DNA from: Henriciella sp.
Lineage (GTDB): Bacteria; Pseudomonadota; Alphaproteobacteria; Caulobacterales; Hyphomonadaceae
DNA: 64,000 bases
Direction: 5' to 3'
NCBI GenBank assembly: GCA_017642885.1
Contig: JAEPOM010000016.1
Span: 18,262-82,261 of the forward strand
Part shown: positions 42,636 through 50,513 of the stretch, one piece after another
How the letters are laid out: each line of letters opens with the position of its first letter
Position numbering within the stretch: the stretch's first letter is position 1
Program-made: the position numbers and the translations under genes
Notes under the pieces: model-generated
Databases searched by the model: none
Seen by the model: only the letters and a program-made list of their open reading frames with translations
What the model was told of the DNA's origin: nothing

Positions 42636-44033
42636 ATGCAAGATGAATTGAGACGCCTCCCGAAAGTCCAGACCCTGCTGGAATCTGACGCTGCAGCGCG
42701 ATTGATTTCACTACATGGGCGCGAAGACGTTGCCGATGCGGTCCGAGCGAAACTCAACATTGCCCGATCTAAAATCATGGCCGCAGGCGGCGCCTCGACG
42801 AGCCCGATCTCCGAGCCGGTCTTTTTCAATGAAATCGCCGACGACCTGAGCGCCAGGAACGCCAACACCCTTAAGCGCGCTATCAATGCCACAGGCGTGA
42901 TTATTCACACCAACCTCGGACGCGCTAGGCTCGCACCGGAAGCGATAGAGGCGGTACAGACTGTCGCCGCGAATTACTCTTCTCTCGAACTGACCCTCCA
43001 AGACGGCAAGCGGGGATCGCGTCACGCACATGTGGAGACTTTGATCTGCCAACTCACCGGCGCCGAAGCTGCCATGGTCGTGAATAATTGCGCTGCGGCC
43101 ATCCTGTCTTGCCTGAGCGCACTCGCAAGCGGAAAGCATGTCATCGCCTCAAGAGGAGAATTGGTGGAGATTGGCGGGTCCTTCCGCATGCCAGACGTCA
43201 TTACCCAAAGCGGCGCTGTGTTGCGCGAAGTGGGGACGACCAACAAAACTCATCTCAGCGACTATGAGCAAGCCATCGATGATGATGCCGCCATTCTGCT
43301 GAAGAGCCACACCAGCAATTTCAGCATAGTCGGGTTCACATCCGCACCAAGCCGACAGGCGCTCTCTGCGCTCGCTCGAAAAACCGGAACCATCCTGGTC
43401 GAGGACCTGGGAAGCGGCGTCCTCATCAATCTCGCAGAGTATGGATTGAAAGAAGAACCGGTGGTTCGAGACGTCATCGCAGACGGCGTCGATCTGGTGA
43501 CATTTTCAGGCGACAAATTGCTCGGCGGGCCCCAGGCCGGGATCATCGCTGGAAAGCGGGCACTCGTGGATACCGTTCGCCGCCACCCGATTGCCCGCGC
43601 CGTTCGCATCGACAAGCTCTCGCTCGCCGCCTTGCGTGCAACGCTGGAATTGTATCGCGCTCCGCACGATCCCATGGCCCGCATCCCGGTCTTGCAAATG
43701 CTAGCAGAGCCGATTGAAGCGATCGAAACACGCGCCAGGAAACTGGCTCAGGCGATCCGCGATGAGACACGACTGAATGCAGAGGTGGTGGAGACCACGG
43801 CTCGTGCTGGCGCCGGTTCATTACCGCAACAGGACTTGCCGAGCGCCGCCGTCGCGGTTTCGAACGAACAGTCATCCGCGGAGCACGTCTCCGCCCAATT
43901 CAGGAGCGCCAATCTGCCCGTGATTGGCCGCATATCCAAGGATACGTTCCTGCTGGATATGCGCGCGGTTTCCGATGAAGAAGTCGATTTGATCGCACGT
44001 GTCGCGCAAACCCTTTGGCCGCATGACGCATAA
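42636..44033 (+). CDS. selA: L-seryl-tRNA(Sec) selenium transferase
   Basis: SelA converts seryl-tRNA(Sec) to selenocysteyl-tRNA(Sec) using selenophosphate. The 465-residue protein begins LRRLPKVQTLLESDAAARLI, the family's N-terminal helical region that binds tRNA-Sec. INATGVIIHTNLGRARL and SRHAHVE (PLP phosphate region) follow, with the PLP lysine at K294 (TFSGDKLLGGPQAG) and the C-terminal GRISKDTFLLDMR. The length equals E. coli SelA. Its stop overlaps the start of selB, and selC follows, so selA, selB and selC form one compact unit. Confidence 0.97.
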   Translation: MQDELRRLPKVQTLLESDAAARLISLHGREDVADAVRAKLNIARSKIMAAGGASTSPISEPVFFNEIADDLSARNANTLKRAINATGVIIHTNLGRARLAPEAIEAVQTVAANYSSLELTLQDGKRGSRHAHVETLICQLTGAEAAMVVNNCAAAILSCLSALASGKHVIASRGELVEIGGSFRMPDVITQSGAVLREVGTTNKTHLSDYEQAIDDDAAILLKSHTSNFSIVGFTSAPSRQALSALARKTGTILVEDLGSGVLINLAEYGLKEEPVVRDVIADGVDLVTFSGDKLLGGPQAGIIAGKRALVDTVRRHPIARAVRIDKLSLAALRATLELYRAPHDPMARIPVLQMLAEPIEAIETRARKLAQAIRDETRLNAEVVETTARAGAGSLPQQDLPSAAVAVSNEQSSAEHVSAQFRSANLPVIGRISKDTFLLDMRAVSDEEVDLIARVAQTLWPHDA

Positions 44034-45900
44034 ATCGATCGCCGTTATCGGCCACGTGGATCACGGTAAAACAGCTCTGGTCGAGGCACTTACGGGTACC
44101 AATACCGACACACTGGCTGAGGAACGCGCGCGCGGCCTCACAATCACACTTGGGTTTGCACATCTTCAGATGTCTGCCGGAACCCTACACTTCATTGATG
44201 CTCCGGGGCATGCGGATTTTATCCGCACCACGGTGTCAGGGCTCAGCGGCGTCGACTCTGTTTTGCTGGTCGTCTCAGCGAGCGAAGGCATCGAAGCCCA
44301 GACGCGAGAGCATTTCAGACTCGCCCGCCTCCTGGGGATCGAGCGCGTGATGGTCACGCTTACAAAGTGCGACCTGGCGAGCGAGGCGATAATCGAAACC
44401 CGGAGAGCGGAGATCAATGCCCTGGCGGTTGAAGCAGGCGATTCATCTCTGCCCATCATCAGCTGCTCAGCACGCGCATCGGATGGACTGCGCGACCTCA
44501 TACACGAGCTGGTCTCGTTCCTCTCAGTGCCCGCGAGTCGAGCGAAACTGACGGATTTCTTTCTTCCTATTGATCGCGTCTTCAACGCCCCCGGCGTCGG
44601 GACAATCGTTACGGGAACGCTGATCGGTGGCGGAGTTGAGAGAGGAACCGGCGCCTCCATCGGAACGGAACTTGTTACCATTCGGGGGATCCAGGTAGCC
44701 GGTGTGCCGGTCGGGTCAGCCTCCGCCGGATCGCGCGTGGCTCTAAACCTTCGCGGGATCAATCAATCCGAGGTTCGGAAAGGCGATGTTGTGTGTGCGC
44801 CAAACGCGTTCGAGCCGTCTTCACGATTTGACGTTGTGCTGCGGGGCGCAAGTGGAGAGCGTCCAAAACTGAAACACACGGATCAGGTGATGATTATGGC
44901 GGGCACGGCTTACCTACCGGCGCGCGTGCGAATGATCTCTAGCGGGACTGAACCTGGCGAACCAGTCTTCGCCCAACTCGAACTCCGTCAACCGCTTGTC
45001 GGGTATCACGGGCAGCATTTCGTCTTACGGAATCCAGCCGCTTCGGAGACCGTGGTCGGCGGCACGATTTTAGATCCGATCGCACCGACTGTCCCGCGCA
45101 GGAAGCCTTTGCACTTGGCCGTGTTGCGCGCCGCGGAGACCAGCAATCCTGTCGCAATTTCACACGCCTTGGCCGACCGTGATCGCGGAGAGGTTCGCGT
45201 GAAGGACGCCGCCCGGCTTTCCGGTAAAACCGTGTCGGAAGTTGAGGACGCCCTTCGCAGAGAGTTCCTCCTGGCCTCACCCAAGCTCGCCCTTCGTCAT
45301 TCCGAAGTCCGGTCGGCTACAGGCGAGTTCCGCGAAGCCCTTACATCCTTGCACCGAGCGCGCCCGATCCGCCCCTTCCACGCGTCTGCCACCGTCACAT
45401 CGAAGCTGCGTCAGGCCCCTGCGTCTATCCTGGACTGGGTTGAGCGCGATTTGGTCCGATCCGGGGAGGTGCTCGAAACCGCATCTGGACTAGCGTTAGC
45501 ATCTCATGACCCACACACTTCTATGACGCCCCAACAGCTGCTGGACTACGAGCAAGCGGCGGCGCGGCTTGCAGAAATGGGCTTGCGACCGACACCGCTC
45601 TTCGCTGACCAAACCACCAGCGCTGAGCAGGAAGACCTAATCGAATTATTGATCCATCTGGGCGTTGCCGTACGCCTCTATAATCACGGATTGCGACAGC
45701 ACATTCTCTTGCATGCAGACGTCGTCGCCGCTGCTCAAGACACCTTGAGGAAACAGTTTCCTCACGGAACGCCTTTCACGACGGGAGAGGCCCGCGCCGC
45801 GCTCGCGACGAACCGCAAAACCGTCGTACCGCTGCTCGAATTGTTTGACCGAAAAGGTGTCACGTCTCGTGAAGAAGATGTCCGGATTCTCGCGGCGTAA
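44023..45900 (+). CDS. selB: Selenocysteine-specific elongation factor SelB
   Basis: SelB is an EF-Tu-like GTPase that binds selenocysteyl-tRNA(Sec) and the SECIS element of the mRNA. The 625-residue protein starts at ATG 44023 (an earlier in-frame codon at 43999 lies in selA). G1 is GHVDHGKTALVEA; DAPGHADF, the guanine-recognition TKCDLAS and a domain-2 FNAPGVGTIVTGTL follow. The C-terminal third is predicted to be winged-helix domains that contact the SECIS hairpin (for example PFTTGEARAALATNRKTVVPLLE). It overlaps selA by 11 bp, and selC begins 56 bp after its stop. Confidence 0.97.
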   Translation: MTHKSIAVIGHVDHGKTALVEALTGTNTDTLAEERARGLTITLGFAHLQMSAGTLHFIDAPGHADFIRTTVSGLSGVDSVLLVVSASEGIEAQTREHFRLARLLGIERVMVTLTKCDLASEAIIETRRAEINALAVEAGDSSLPIISCSARASDGLRDLIHELVSFLSVPASRAKLTDFFLPIDRVFNAPGVGTIVTGTLIGGGVERGTGASIGTELVTIRGIQVAGVPVGSASAGSRVALNLRGINQSEVRKGDVVCAPNAFEPSSRFDVVLRGASGERPKLKHTDQVMIMAGTAYLPARVRMISSGTEPGEPVFAQLELRQPLVGYHGQHFVLRNPAASETVVGGTILDPIAPTVPRRKPLHLAVLRAAETSNPVAISHALADRDRGEVRVKDAARLSGKTVSEVEDALRREFLLASPKLALRHSEVRSATGEFREALTSLHRARPIRPFHASATVTSKLRQAPASILDWVERDLVRSGEVLETASGLALASHDPHTSMTPQQLLDYEQAAARLAEMGLRPTPLFADQTTSAEQEDLIELLIHLGVAVRLYNHGLRQHILLHADVVAAAQDTLRKQFPHGTPFTTGEARAALATNRKTVVPLLELFDRKGVTSREEDVRILAA

Positions 45901-45956: not shown

Positions 45957-46052
45957 GGAGGCGACTGGAGTCTGGTGGCTTCCCTGGTCTTCAAAACCAG
46001 CGACGCGTCGTAACCGGCGTGTGGTGGGTTCGATTCCCATCCGCCTCCGCCA
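45957..46052 (+). tRNA. selC: tRNA-Sec (anticodon TCA)
   Basis: 96 nt with encoded CCA. The 5' acceptor GGAGGCGA pairs with the 3' strand (seven clear pairs plus an eighth position), the long acceptor stem of tRNA-Sec. The D-arm has the six-base-pair stem GGAGTC/GGCTTC closing a TGGT loop. The anticodon stem is CTGGT/ACCAG with loop CTTCAAA and anticodon TCA. A long variable arm follows, and the T arm is GTGGG-TTCGATT-CCCAT. Folding is the same as E. coli selC in every arm. The gene lies between selB and the thioredoxin-like gene. Confidence 0.96.
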
Positions 46053-46121: not shown

Positions 46122-47708
46122 ATGGCTGAGATTTCGGGTTTCGAACTAGATGACCTCGACGGCGCACCGCGAACGTTCCCGTCGACGGACCCAACGCTCA
46201 TCTGCTTCGTCAAAGAGGATTGCGAAACCTGCAATCTTGCCGCTCCGGTCCTGGAGGCCTTTGCGCAAGCTTATAGCGACACCGCAAATGTCTGGATGAT
46301 CAGCCAGACACGCGAGGGTAGCCTGGTCTTGAAAGACCGGCACGGACTGAGCCTTCCGATTCTGGAAGATGCCGACCTGCAAACCTCGTTCGCCTACGGG
46401 TTCGATATTGTTCCCGCGCTTTATTGGTGCCCCGACGGCGCAGCACTCGACACCCATTTCGAGGGGTTCGTGAAAAGCGAATGGCAAGGCGTGGATCAAA
46501 AAATAGCCGAAATGCTCGACACGGAAGTTGCCAAGATCGATTGGGACACCCTGCCCGATTGGCGGCCCGGATGCGGGTCCAAACATCTGGATCCGGAGAT
46601 CCACGACCGACTGCTCGCAGAAGCCTCGGACAGCCCGATCCGTGCCCGGAAAATCGAAATCGCCAGTGCCGACGACGTCGCTGAATTCATGTTTGACCAA
46701 GGCTTCTCCGACGGCCTTCCGATCGTCCCCCCGACGCCAGAGCGCGTGGTGCGCATGCTCAGCGGCACGCGGCGCTCGCCCAAAGACGTGATCGCTCAAA
46801 TGCCGCCCAATATGGGCGAAGCAACGGTGGAAAAGATCGCCATCAACGCGGTCATGGCAGGGTGCAAGCCGGAATATCTGCCGGTGGTGATCGCCGCGAT
46901 CGAAGCCGTCTGCACGGATGAGTTCAACATTCACGGCGTGATGGCCACGACCATGGGCGCATCGCCGGTCCTCGTCGTGAACGGCCCTATTCGCGATCGC
47001 CTCGATATGAATAGCGGTTTGATGGCATTGGGCACGGGCAATCGCGCGAACGCCACGATCGGGCGCGCCGTGCGCCTCGCCATTCGTAATATCGGGGGAT
47101 CAAAACCAGGCGGCACGGATCGCTCCACGCTGGGCTCACCGATGAAATTCACAATGTGCTTTGCTGAACGCGAGGATCGCTCGCCCTGGGCGCCTCTCCA
47201 TGTTGAGCGCGGGTTCAAAGCGGAAGACTCCGTGGTCACAGCCTTCGCCATGACGTCCGGACCGGTTCATATCGTCGATCAGGAATCGCGCGCGCCAGAC
47301 GAGATCGCTGGAACACTGGGTTTGGGACTCGAGTCGCTCTTCCTGCCCAAATACCACATGATGCCAGTCGACACGCTTCTGGTGGTCTGCCCAGAGCATG
47401 TCGATACGTTGATGCGGGATGGTGCATACGACAAGGATCGTCTGCGTGCTCGCGTCCAGGTGGTCACGATGCGGCCGCTCCGCGATATGGTTGCAAATGA
47501 AGTCTCTGGCGCAGGAATGACCCGGGCGGCTGCGGCTAATCTTGATGAGGATCAGCTCGATAGACTCGTCCCGAAATTTGCCAAGCCAGACCATATCCAT
47601 ATTGTGGTCGCAGGATCAGATGCTGGGAAATTCTCGAGTGCTTATCATGGCTGGGTCACCGGACCGATGGGCTCGCAGTCAGTTTCCCGCAAGATTGAAG
47701 ATGTTTAG
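46122..47708 (+). CDS. Thioredoxin-like plus conserved-domain protein, probable UGSC-selenoprotein partner
   Basis: 528 residues. The first about 140 form a thioredoxin-like fold with CxxC at C34-C37 (FVKEDCETCNLAAPVLEAF) and the cis-proline-like DIVPALYW. The rest (about residues 180-528) is a separate conserved-looking domain, starting EFMFDQGFSDGLPIVPPTPE and containing AVMAGCKPEYLPVVIAAIEA and VMATTMGASPVLVVNGP. I cannot name it. A strong AGGAGG lies five bases before ATG 46122; the earlier in-frame GTG (46116) lies within that site. It begins 69 bp after selC, and the selenoprotein gene follows 14 bp later, so the pair is probably a thiol-redox system. No in-frame TGA is used here. Confidence 0.75.
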   Translation: MAEISGFELDDLDGAPRTFPSTDPTLICFVKEDCETCNLAAPVLEAFAQAYSDTANVWMISQTREGSLVLKDRHGLSLPILEDADLQTSFAYGFDIVPALYWCPDGAALDTHFEGFVKSEWQGVDQKIAEMLDTEVAKIDWDTLPDWRPGCGSKHLDPEIHDRLLAEASDSPIRARKIEIASADDVAEFMFDQGFSDGLPIVPPTPERVVRMLSGTRRSPKDVIAQMPPNMGEATVEKIAINAVMAGCKPEYLPVVIAAIEAVCTDEFNIHGVMATTMGASPVLVVNGPIRDRLDMNSGLMALGTGNRANATIGRAVRLAIRNIGGSKPGGTDRSTLGSPMKFTMCFAEREDRSPWAPLHVERGFKAEDSVVTAFAMTSGPVHIVDQESRAPDEIAGTLGLGLESLFLPKYHMMPVDTLLVVCPEHVDTLMRDGAYDKDRLRARVQVVTMRPLRDMVANEVSGAGMTRAAAANLDEDQLDRLVPKFAKPDHIHIVVAGSDAGKFSSAYHGWVTGPMGSQSVSRKIEDV

Positions 47709-47722
47709 AAGAAGGAGGACGA

Positions 47723-48241
47723 ATGACAGTCATTCTAGATCCAACTGACGAAGCTGTACCGGTCAGTCGGCAAATTACGCCGCGCTCTGGCCAGGTCACC
47801 GGCGTGGTTGGCTTGATGGACATTCGAAAACCGAGAGGCGACATTTTGCTCGATGAGCTTGAACGTCTTCTCGGGGAACGAATGCCGGGTATCGAAGTCC
47901 GGCGCTACGCCAAGCCAACCTTCACCAAGCCCTGCCCCGACGATTTACGGACGCAGATGAAGGCTGAATGTGATTTCGTCGTTGAAGGGTTAGCTGACTG
48001 AGGGTCTTGTACGACGTGCAGTATGCACGACACAGTCTGGTTTGAAATCCAGGGCCTTCCGGCAGTTACCATCGCTTCTAGCGAATTTCATAACGCCGCC
48101 GTGACCCAGCGCGACGCGCTCGGCATGAGCGATGCGCGATTTGTCCTCGTCGATCATCCGATTCAGGATGCGACCGATGATGAAATGCGCACCAAGGCGG
48201 CGGCGGTCTATGATCAAGTGGTCGACGCACTGACGACGTGA
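47723..48241 (+). CDS. UGSC-motif selenoprotein; in-frame TGA at 47999-48001 read as selenocysteine
   Basis: The reading frame opens at ATG 47723 after AAGGAGG, runs 92 codons, meets TGA at 47999, and continues in the same frame for another 79 codons to a TGA at 48239. Read through, the protein has 172 residues with Sec at 93: LAD-U-GSC-TTC-SMHD. U-G-S-C is the signature of the UGSC selenoprotein family, in which Sec93 and Cys96 form a CxxC-like redox pair. A second Cys (C99) follows. The half after the Sec continues with normal protein-like sequence (VWFEIQGLPAVTIASSEFHN). A SECIS-like hairpin follows the TGA at the expected distance. A gene caller that stops at TGA would report two unrelated short ORFs here. 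Confidence 0.93.
47999..48034 (+). promoter_or_regulatory. SECIS-like element (UGA codon plus hairpin)
   Basis: After the TGA, CGTGC (48015-48019) pairs with GCACG (48025-48029) around a five-base loop AGTAT, with flanking TGT/ACA (48008-48010 / 48032-48034) extending the stem. The apical loop starts 19 nt after the TGA. In E. coli fdhF the recognised loop is about 18-23 nt after the UGA, and its apex (UGCAG-GU-CUGCA) resembles the sequence here (TGCAG-TA-TGCA). This is inside the coding region, as bacterial SECIS elements are. It would bring SelB to the ribosome at the UGA. Position and apex are seen; recognition is inferred. Confidence 0.72.
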
Positions 48242-48262
48242 TCGTAGCTTGTTCCGATCTGG

Positions 48263-48297
48263 TCAGCCCGGTTGGAAAACCGGGCTGATCGCTTTTT
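48263..48297 (+). terminator. Rho-independent terminator after the selenoprotein gene
   Basis: TCAGCCCGGTT (48263-48273) pairs perfectly with 48278-48288 around the loop GGAA, followed by TCGC and five T (48293-48297). It begins 22 bp after the selenoprotein stop and separates it from selD. Confidence 0.9.
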
Positions 48298-48341: not shown

Positions 48342-50513
48342 TTGCAATCAAATCGACCACTCCCAATCACGCGCGACCTGGTTCTGCTGGGCGGAGGGCA
48401 CGCGCATGCCTTGGTCTTGAAAAAGTGGGCGATGGCGCCGCTCCCCGGAGCGCAAGTCACCTTGGTCAATCCGGATGCGAAAGCGCCTTATACCGGGATG
48501 CTCCCTGGCTTTGTCGCCGGTCACTACCAGCGCGCCGATCTGGATATCGATATGGTGCGTCTGGCCCGGCAAGCGGGCGCGCGGCTCATCATCGACCGCG
48601 CCATCGGCATCGATACAGAGGCCAAGACGGTCCAACTGAAATCGCGACCCGACATCTGCTATGACACGCTGTCCATCGACATTGGCATCACGTCCGCCTT
48701 GATGGATTTACCCGGAGCGTCAGACCATCTCGTCCCGGCCAAGCCGCTGGGCCGGTTCGCAGATTCCTGGTCAGCTTTGATCGAAGACGCGCAATTGAAA
48801 CGCCGCCCCCTCAACATTGCAGTCATCGGCGCCGGTGTCGCAGGGATCGAGCTCGCACTCGCCATGGACCACCGATTGAAAGAGCTCGGCATCTCCGGAA
48901 CGGTTGGTTTGATTGAGGCGGCGGATACGATCCTGAGAGAAGCCAGCTCTGGCGCACGGCGCAAACTAATCTCGGAACTAAAACACGCAGAGATCGAAGT
49001 CATAACGGAGACGACGGTCACCGCGTTCACTGAACAGGGCTTTTGCCGGGGCCCAGATGACGCGCTCGTTCCAGCGGACTTTATCGTCAGCACCGCCGGG
49101 GCGATGCCGCATTGCTGGCTATCTGAAACATCGCTCGACCTGGAGGCGGGGTATATTGCGGTGGCGCCAACGCTGCGCTCAACCAACACACCAAACGTCT
49201 TTGCCACAGGCGATTGCGCCCACCTGACCCACGCGCCTCGCCCCAAAGCTGGCGTGTTTGCCGTCCGCCAGGCGCCCGTTCTGTTTGAGAACCTCTGCGC
49301 CGATCTTGCCGATCAACCGCTCCGAAATTTCACCCCTCAAAAGTCTTATTTGAAGCTCATCTCGACCGGACGAAAATCTGCGATCACTGATAAATGGGGC
49401 ATTGGGCTGTCGGGGAAGCGCATCTGGCGACTAAAGAATCGCATCGATCAAGCGTTCATGGATCAGTTTCGACATCCTACAAACATGGAGATCCCGGATC
49501 TGCCTGCGAGGCGCGCGTCCGGGCTCGACGACTTGTATGAGGCGCACACGCATCAGTGCGGAGCTTGCGGCGCCAAAGTCGCGCAAGGCACTTTGGAGAA
49601 AGGTCTGGACAACGCACTTGATGGATCGCTTGAGGACGCAGCGATCATCAATCATGGCGCGACATCCCAAGTCTTCAGCACGGACCACCTGCGCGCCTTC
49701 AATCAAGACCCGTATACGTTGGCCAAGGTCGCAGCGATCCACGCGCTTGGAGATATCTGGGCCATGGGCGCGACGCCAGACGCGGTGCTCGCTCATATAG
49801 TTCTGCCGCCGCTTTCTCCCAAGAAGCAGGCTCAAATGATGCGCGAAATCATGGCCGGCGCCGGAGACGTGTTTTCCGCCTGCGACACGAAGATTTCCGG
49901 CGGACATACGAGCAATGGTGCAGAATTGATGATTGGGTTTTCGATTGCAGGAAACCTTGACCACGCCCCGATCACCCAATCCGGAGCGTCGCCCGGTGAT
50001 TGCCTGATCCTGACCAAACCCATCGGCACAGGCGTCCTCCTCGCAGCAGAAATGCGCCAGCTTGCCGATGGCGACGATTATCAGGCGGCGCTCACGAGCA
50101 TGACGCGACTGCAGTCTGAGGCGTCTAGCTTGCTCCGAGACCATGCGACCGCGCTAACCGATGTCACCGGCTTCGGCCTCGCCGGTCACTTGTTCAATAT
50201 TCTGAACACTTCCGGCGTAGCGGCGCGTATCGATCTCTCAGACATTCCGCTCCTGGAAGGTGCGTTGAACCTGGCGAGCGACGGCGTCCGCTCGACCCTT
50301 TGGCCGTCAAATGCAGAGAGAGCGGAACAGATGACCATGACCGCTTCGCCGCTGACCGACCTTCTCTTCGACCCTCAAACATGCGGCGGCTTGTTAGCCA
50401 CGATCCCCGCAGCAAAGACCGCGCAGGTATTCGAGGCATTTGAGGCTGCGGAAGAGCCAATCTGGAAGATTGGTGACATCACGCAAGGCGCACCCCATAT
50501 CGAGGTGCAATGA
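48342..50513 (+). CDS. selD: Fused pyridine-nucleotide-disulfide-oxidoreductase-like / selenophosphate synthetase SelD
   Basis: 723 residues in two parts. Residues 1 to about 390 form an FAD/NAD(P)-dependent oxidoreductase related to type II NADH dehydrogenases (LVLLGGGHAHALVLKKW, IAVIGAGVAGIELALAMD, NVFATGDCAHL). From about 400 it is SelD, which makes selenophosphate from selenide and ATP. The catalytic Cys region is QCGACGAKVAQ (C406, C409, K412); DPYTLAKVAAIHALGDIWAMG, KISGGHTSNGAELMIGF and LTDVTGFGLAGHLF follow. The active-site residue is Cys, not Sec, so translation does not need Sec. Translation appears to begin at TTG 48342 after GGAG. The fusion is known in several bacteria; its first half may reduce a selenium precursor. 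Confidence 0.92.
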   Translation: MQSNRPLPITRDLVLLGGGHAHALVLKKWAMAPLPGAQVTLVNPDAKAPYTGMLPGFVAGHYQRADLDIDMVRLARQAGARLIIDRAIGIDTEAKTVQLKSRPDICYDTLSIDIGITSALMDLPGASDHLVPAKPLGRFADSWSALIEDAQLKRRPLNIAVIGAGVAGIELALAMDHRLKELGISGTVGLIEAADTILREASSGARRKLISELKHAEIEVITETTVTAFTEQGFCRGPDDALVPADFIVSTAGAMPHCWLSETSLDLEAGYIAVAPTLRSTNTPNVFATGDCAHLTHAPRPKAGVFAVRQAPVLFENLCADLADQPLRNFTPQKSYLKLISTGRKSAITDKWGIGLSGKRIWRLKNRIDQAFMDQFRHPTNMEIPDLPARRASGLDDLYEAHTHQCGACGAKVAQGTLEKGLDNALDGSLEDAAIINHGATSQVFSTDHLRAFNQDPYTLAKVAAIHALGDIWAMGATPDAVLAHIVLPPLSPKKQAQMMREIMAGAGDVFSACDTKISGGHTSNGAELMIGFSIAGNLDHAPITQSGASPGDCLILTKPIGTGVLLAAEMRQLADGDDYQAALTSMTRLQSEASSLLRDHATALTDVTGFGLAGHLFNILNTSGVAARIDLSDIPLLEGALNLASDGVRSTLWPSNAERAEQMTMTASPLTDLLFDPQTCGGLLATIPAAKTAQVFEAFEAAEEPIWKIGDITQGAPHIEVQ

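Follow-up and report, generated by a model that had tools for sequence, protein, structure and literature searches.

Genes and features at the UGSC locus

The window, i.e. the whole stretch of DNA that was analysed, comprises 64,000 nucleotides of a Henriciella sp. contig. A UGSC-family selenoprotein gene lies on its forward strand at 47723..48241 and spans 172 codons, with the stop TGA at 48239-48241. The frame from ATG 47723 is broken only by a TGA at 47999..48001, also on the forward strand, predicted to encode selenocysteine (Sec) at residue 93 in the motif U-G-S-C-T-T-C; the wider reading around the codon is E-G-L-A-D-U-G-S-C-T-T-C-S-M-H-D. The first-pass annotation of this DNA had described such a frame, with codons spelling U-G-S-C, and its coordinates and reading were exact. 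The strong ribosome binding site it had noted is likewise present: the forward-strand sequence AAGGAGG (47712..47718) is separated from the ATG by 4 bases, and the stop codon of the preceding gene by 14 bases. Directly 3' of the UGSC gene, a forward-strand terminator-like stem with a T run occupies 48260..48291, as found by a consensus scan only, which returned 4 such sites in the region compared with 2.8 in shuffled sequences. Rfam also matched this stem to CC0196, though below threshold (21.8 vs 35 bits).

When the TGA was translated as Cys, the window protein scored 171.6 bits with the NF041046 model, 'UGSC family (seleno)protein' (cut-off 125), and 167.8 bits with PF24696 (cut-off 25). Both matches run across the codon and cover residue 93, in line with the earlier remark that the sequence past the TGA is protein-like. 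UGSC had also been called a recognised but functionally obscure family, and this description holds: the family has two curated models, and the UGSC passages of a 2026 review list it among selenoproteins with largely uncharacterised functions (PMC13188914). The window gene is a real and typical member of this known, uncharacterised selenoprotein family. Like other members, it places Sec at U-G-S-C, encodes about 170 aa and adjoins Sec genes, and we found no feature that sets it apart. The family has been seen in sequenced genomes and in marine metagenomes; in aquatic metagenomes it ranks among the most frequent selenoprotein families, with 8.2% of selenoprotein genes in one marine survey (PMC9402790).

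The adjacency to selA, selB and selC, which had been proposed from the sequence, was confirmed by curated models and by ARAGORN/Rfam. On the forward strand, selA occupies 42636..44033 (TIGR00474, 577.3 vs 267.9 bits) and selB 43999..45900 (TIGR00475, 256.6 vs 242.25 bits), followed by selC, the tRNA-Sec with anticodon tca, at 45957..46052 (ARAGORN/Rfam). Downstream of UGSC, an NDH-like/SelD fusion gene at 48342..50513 on the same strand encodes the selenophosphate synthetase (TIGR03169, 481 vs 310 bits; TIGR00476, 262 vs 125 bits), so that selA, selB, selC and selD all adjoin UGSC. The fusion gene itself contains no in-frame TGA.

Reading of the in-frame TGA

In bacterial selenoprotein genes, a hairpin with a G in its loop lies just 3' of the UGA. 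A SECIS-like hairpin, CGUGCA-GUA-UGCACG, was located on the forward strand at 48015..48029, i.e. 14-28 bases after the TGA, with a loop that starts with G; codon constraint, pair counts and folding bear on it. The 21-base hairpin alone folded at -7.4 kcal/mol (z -2.54 vs shuffles), and the 45 bases from the TGA onward folded no better than shuffles (z 0.75). We ranked synonymous variation over 81 aligned loci at codons whose residue was conserved in >80% of the 81 rows. The least variable codons were +5, +6, +7, +8 and +10 after Sec, all of them within the hairpin; codon +6 was TGC and codon +7 was AGT, encoding a Ser for which six codons are possible, in 81/81 rows each. The sixth hairpin codon, +9, varied freely between CAC and CAT, both of which pair with the opposite G. 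Among 30 close loci, the tool counted no hairpin pair with changes on both sides. In a second alignment, formed by 22 of the 30 close rows and Acidovorax, all 138 of 138 cells were paired and two pairs had changes on both sides, a value reached in 13 of 500 shuffles. The Acidovorax hairpin has 8 pairs and folded at -12.6 kcal/mol. None of the Rfam models, SECIS included, matched the hairpin at 48015-48029.

The codon was compared in the DNA of relatives. A protein search with UGSC covered the genome of the window together with 60 relatives (61 genomes) and gave matches in 14, and the matches that spanned the codon contained exactly one in-frame TGA in 12 of 12 cases. In genome G011, the UGSC gene is divided between two contig ends with the break at the codon, and the match in genome G032 consists of two short pieces only. 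From a scan of genome contigs, the best 80 of 520 confirmed UGSC loci were kept; TGA followed by G-S-C was present in all 81 sequences (these 80 and the window), a count that says little about distant members, since the 80 loci are the closest relatives. Eight further matches came from plasmid records, with Cys at the site in seven and TGA in the eighth (Acidovorax sp. T1).

The annotated proteins look different at first sight. Among the 120 listed of 268 database matches, 114 align before the TGA only, two after it only and four across it. The first-pass annotation had expected ordinary annotation to lose this protein, which is what these numbers reflect. It had also stated that homologues all ending at the TGA would speak against its reading; on the surface the annotated proteins give that picture, but the relatives' DNA continues in frame and overturns it, and we attribute the truncated homologues to annotation that is unaware of Sec. 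Homologues do align before as well as after residue 93, as the earlier database test had asked, with TGA as the DNA codon in each of the aligned loci and with Cys forms as well. We must also note that read-through proteins do not all carry Cys. Among the seven found in two protein listings (an eighth, P0008, was dropped as garbled at the Sec site), two have Cys (P0244 and P0245) and in the other five the Sec position is occupied by G, R or W (P0002, P0003, P0004, P0242 and P0243), which counts against the Sec reading. Each of these three residues is one base change from TGA, and four of the five proteins come from contigs shorter than 1 kb; it is possible that the substitutions are errors. Sequencing error as the source of the TGA itself was ruled out, the codon being common to many separate genomes.

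The distribution of the Sec machinery was compared using selA rather than tRNA-Sec counts. Of the 61 genomes, 13 scored above cut-off with the selA model, and exactly these 13 contain UGSC; the fourteenth UGSC-matching genome, G032, lacks selA and retains UGSC only as a decayed remnant. With G032 included among the UGSC genomes, Fisher's exact test on the association gave 2e-12, a value that ignores kinship; the 13 genomes belong to a small number of genera. In this clade, most likely the Hyphomonadaceae, Sec genes and UGSC thus tend to be gained and lost jointly. The tRNA-Sec model matched in 61/61 genomes, above cut-off in 34; most matches, at 47-53 bits, were taken as tRNA-Ser-like, and only the 12 at ≥67 bits were counted as real. 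No tRNA-Sec match at ≥67 bits was obtained in genome G026, which has both UGSC and selA and whose assembly is 84% complete. In the selA-less G032 (loci L014 and L016), the remnant is frameshifted and shortened, and the partner match described below is absent. Near UGSC among the best 80 of 520 loci, selA was found in 36, selB in 37 and selC in 37, and gammaproteobacterial loci had no sel genes within the fetched stretch of up to 8 kb per side.

Support for the predicted readthrough as Sec that had been proposed for this gene comes from the TGA conservation, the hairpin, the presence of Sec machinery and the selA co-occurrence. That TGA 47999 is instead a plain stop of a 92-residue protein, the remainder being decay or a separate frame, agrees with the database proteins that align up to the TGA only, but we rejected this reading as having virtually no probability on account of the TGA and following frame kept in 81/81 loci with codon-level constraint on the hairpin, the relatives and Cys forms that span the codon, and the 13 genomes in which selA and UGSC co-occur.

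Partner protein and predicted folds

The gene directly upstream of UGSC, in the window as in 79 of 80 loci, encodes a partner protein with a thioredoxin-like domain and a second domain, D2. It occupies 46122..47708 on the forward strand and yields 528 aa from ATG 46122, the length of most listed homologues. The mechanical open reading frame begins at GTG 46116, but AGGAGG precedes ATG 46122. The thioredoxin/ResA-like domain (46122..46526, forward strand) was assigned from a profile and from the predicted fold and contains a CxxC motif; in the window, D2 (46671..47654, forward strand) is fused behind it. D2 has many invariant polar residues and an invariant Cys, Cys250 as counted from GTG 46116, and no Pfam or NCBIfam model matched it above cut-off. 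Its predicted model is confident in part only, with 10-residue means of 43-96 within the domain. Thioredoxin-like proteins took up the matches listed in both fold searches with the partner.

D2 stands beside UGSC or is fused with it in 87 of 88 loci, i.e. the 80 best of 520 and the eight plasmid loci; the exception is cut by a contig edge, and all eight plasmid records have the pair. In Arthrobacter, the gene order is trxB-trxA-D2-UGSC. The partner search in the 61 genomes gave 12 strong matches and a weak one (G052, E 2.8e-4), which was disregarded; G026 has no partner match because its contig begins at UGSC. Relatives of the partner protein are numerous, at least 7,983 of the 8,000 candidates scored, some of which may match via the thioredoxin-like part alone. 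The pairing rule of UGSC and D2 and the thioredoxin-fused partner are new additions to what is known of the UGSC family, for which the UGSC passages of PMC2398784 record a UGSC/Unknown_1 fusion. UGSC and the partner were also considered as mutual relatives and gave no signal (hhalign probability 0.2%).

The predicted model of UGSC has a mean pLDDT of 92.6 and a strictly alternating (beta-alpha)5 arrangement, in which Sec93 lies ahead of the helix 94-109. The fold matches listed include flavodoxin-like, lumazine-synthase-like and response-regulator folds, and the thioredoxin fold was absent from the 50 matches listed in either UGSC fold search. By sequence, no solved relatives of UGSC were found up to E 10. 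The predicted alternating alpha/beta fold, which is new here, would differ from the Trx-like fold suggested in the UGSC passages of PMC2398784.

Probable relation to GrdB/PrdB and a possible function

In an NCBIfam scan of 20 diverse UGSC members, the UGSC model matched 20/20. Models of the GrdB/PrdB group followed (GrdB in 8, GrdF in 5, PrdB in 2, TIGR01918 in 2 and GrdH in 1), and five families outside UGSC and this group matched one of the 20 members each. The best match to the group had E 0.00044, and the single matches were weak (E 0.0004-0.18, 10.7-19 bits); those to the GrdB model cover the Sec region, starting at model position 333-342 of 431. The window protein matched no GrdB/PrdB model in scans to E 10, in which HMMER filters drop most matches above 0.1. 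As no UGSC member scanned reached the curated GrdB/PrdB cut-offs (PF07355, TIGR01917 and TIGR04483), we do not class UGSC as GrdB or PrdB.

PF07355 matches occurred in 30 of 289 alphaproteobacterial genomes, and the 30 corresponding loci were fetched (L110-L139); the set is therefore alphaproteobacterial and does not represent clostridial GrdB/PrdB. Twelve read-throughs with a [UC]xxC site were picked by pattern (set A5) and the other 18 left out. Eleven of the 12 have TGA at the site, so that annotation would likely cut those proteins too. Locus L119, not among the pattern-picked ones, has Cys at the site. A Pfam scan of the 12 proteins gave one match to PF24696 (E 0.0043). In hhalign comparisons of UGSC with the PF07355 proteins, Sec fell on Sec, with P 3.5e-4 and probability 37% with A2, and P 8.6e-4 and probability 24% with the diverse UGSC set A7. 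In hmmsearch with the UGSC profile, the 12 proteins outranked 917 neighbour ORFs (rank test P 3e-8), counted after removal of 16 ORFs that overlap UGSC itself, and also 252 sequences made by shuffling or reversal (P 2e-9), and Sec was in register in the two alignments printed. The ranks overlap with those of the decoys: the ten best non-UGSC sequences were five PF07355 proteins and five decoys, one neighbour ORF stood above all but two of the 12, and two of the 12 scored below zero. A further PF07355 search in 398 genomes of the phylum gave weak matches in seven genomes, with UGSC-unlike match lengths and at best 39 bits, which were kept out of the comparison. Among solved structures, the PF07355-type proteins had no convincing relative, the best match (E 0.019) being to a designed protein.

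Moreover, the window protein has the motif UxxCxxC at the Sec site (U93-G-S-C96-T-T-C99), which it has in common with GrdB/PrdB and which the GrdB passage of PMC13188914 gives for that protein; Cys99 is lost in haloarchaeal, Embleya, Acidovorax and Variovorax members. Glycine reductase also has thioredoxin genes alongside, as at the Arthrobacter UGSC. With the model matches, the alignments and the profile ranking combined, each of them weak singly, the Sec region of UGSC appears related by sequence to that of GrdB/PrdB. Such a kinship is not proposed in the UGSC passages of the open-access selenoprotein papers found on the family, and it joins the D2/thioredoxin partner rule and the fold prediction as a new addition to the knowledge of UGSC.

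The differences are considerable. UGSC, at 172 aa, is without the long N-terminal part that precedes the Sec domain in GrdB. The partner of GrdB/PrdB is GrdE/PrdA, made from a pyruvoyl proprotein (PF09338), in place of which UGSC has D2, not recognisable as GrdE/PrdA: D2 matched no GrdE/PrdA model, PF09338 gave no match up to E 10 in eight D2 proteins (seven free, one fused) and the window partner. A PF09338 search of 398 genomes was empty, but its 14 control genomes were silent as well, so that it carries no information. Also in contrast to GrdB/PrdB, UGSC members were seen in proteobacterial, acidobacterial and planctomycete records and in haloarchaeal and actinobacterial plasmids.

For D-proline reductase, the mechanistic proposal in PMC3091704, in the passages concerned, has the PrdB selenolate attack the alpha-carbon of the pyruvoyl-bound substrate, after which a PrdB Cys cleaves the selenoether, leaving a Se-S bond for reduction; glycine reduction, by the same passages, draws on thioredoxin reductase and thioredoxin. 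Parts of PMC10298544 add that two steps of the proline-reductase scheme are undocumented in organic chemistry and that proline reductase is not thioredoxin-driven. According to portions of PMC10838667, a GrdB-like operon in Synergistota is implicated in fluoroacetate reduction, i.e. GrdB-related proteins are implicated in the reductive loss of a non-amine leaving group, for which reason such leaving groups are conceivable for UGSC. That operon is anaerobic and has other partner genes, and those portions mention neither UGSC nor D2.

On balance, we lean towards UGSC, with its predicted Sec, being the catalytic half of a thioredoxin-driven reductase related to GrdB/PrdB. SelB and tRNA-Sec would read the UGA, aided by the hairpin at 48015-48029, and Sec93, predicted at the start of the helix after the third strand of the alpha/beta sheet, would act as nucleophile. 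The partner's D2 would stand in for the substrate-activating partner, holding and activating a small carboxylate or a CoA-linked acid. Attack of the selenolate on the substrate carbon would displace the leaving group, Cys96 would then cleave the Se-C adduct with formation of a Se-S bond, and the CxxC thioredoxin-like domain of the partner, supplied in cis, would re-reduce that bond. More tentatively, and with somewhat less than even confidence, UGSC-D2 could form an unrecognised branch of the glycine/proline-reductase superfamily outside strict anaerobes, which would cleave C-N or C-X bonds of small acids and bring its own thioredoxin. In such a branch, to be held just as tentatively, UGSC would be a stripped-down Sec/Cys subunit and D2 a new substrate-activating domain, serving organic-acid catabolism, and the invariant Cys250 of D2 might act as a second nucleophile or as a cofactor derived from Cys. 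What lends the locus interest beyond the known family is the constant pairing of UGSC with D2 and thioredoxin and its likely kinship with GrdB/PrdB, which make the function of UGSC testable. Should UGSC indeed form the catalytic core of a reductase of the GrdB/PrdB kind, with D2 as constant partner, it would gain a concrete, testable chemistry, as would D2 with its many relatives.

The gene neighbourhoods bear on this reading. Neighbour clusters were built from mechanical ORFs, some in the wrong frame, and ten representatives were scanned, one naming each cluster. Recurrent neighbours in the best 80 of 520 loci, mostly gammaproteobacterial, included CoA-transferase III (14 loci), MFS transporters (9), TauD-type dioxygenases, RraA-like proteins and SDRs (7 each), amidohydrolases (7 and 6), and MaoC and AMP-binding proteins (5 each). 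Four haloarchaeal plasmids have differing mixes of CoA-transferases, CoA lyases, RraA-like proteins and TRAP/tricarboxylate transporters. Together, the gammaproteobacterial and haloarchaeal neighbours point to organic-acid catabolism rather than stress defence.

UGSC could alternatively be a thiol oxidoreductase or peroxidase of the Trx/Prx type, with Sec93 and Cys96 as a redox pair acting on protein disulphides or peroxides and the partner as reductant. The UxxC motif, the thioredoxin-like domain of the partner and the placement of UGSC among Trx-like-fold redox proteins in the relevant passages of PMC2398784 and PMC13188914 agree with this role. Nevertheless, we consider it unlikely: the predicted (beta-alpha)5 fold has its listed matches among other alpha/beta folds, a constant, large D2 with invariant polar residues would be needless for a simple peroxidase, and the neighbours look catabolic in many gammaproteobacterial loci and on the haloarchaeal plasmids. 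Quite improbable is a role of UGSC-D2 in handling a metal or metalloid, such as selenium, mercury or arsenic detoxification with Sec and Cys as ligands; the UxxCxxC motif and the selenium locus present in about half of the loci (36-37 of 80 for each sel gene) would suit it, but Cys99 is not conserved, the ten recurrent-neighbour representatives include no metal-resistance family, and the gammaproteobacterial loci are without sel genes over the stretch fetched.

Two variations on the UGSC-D2 arrangement were also seen. On two haloarchaeal plasmids (L150 and L154), D2 genes flank UGSC on both sides, and the Arthrobacter UGSC (L152, 7989-8804) carries a C-terminal NifU-like domain that scored 27.2 bits with a cut-off of 27.
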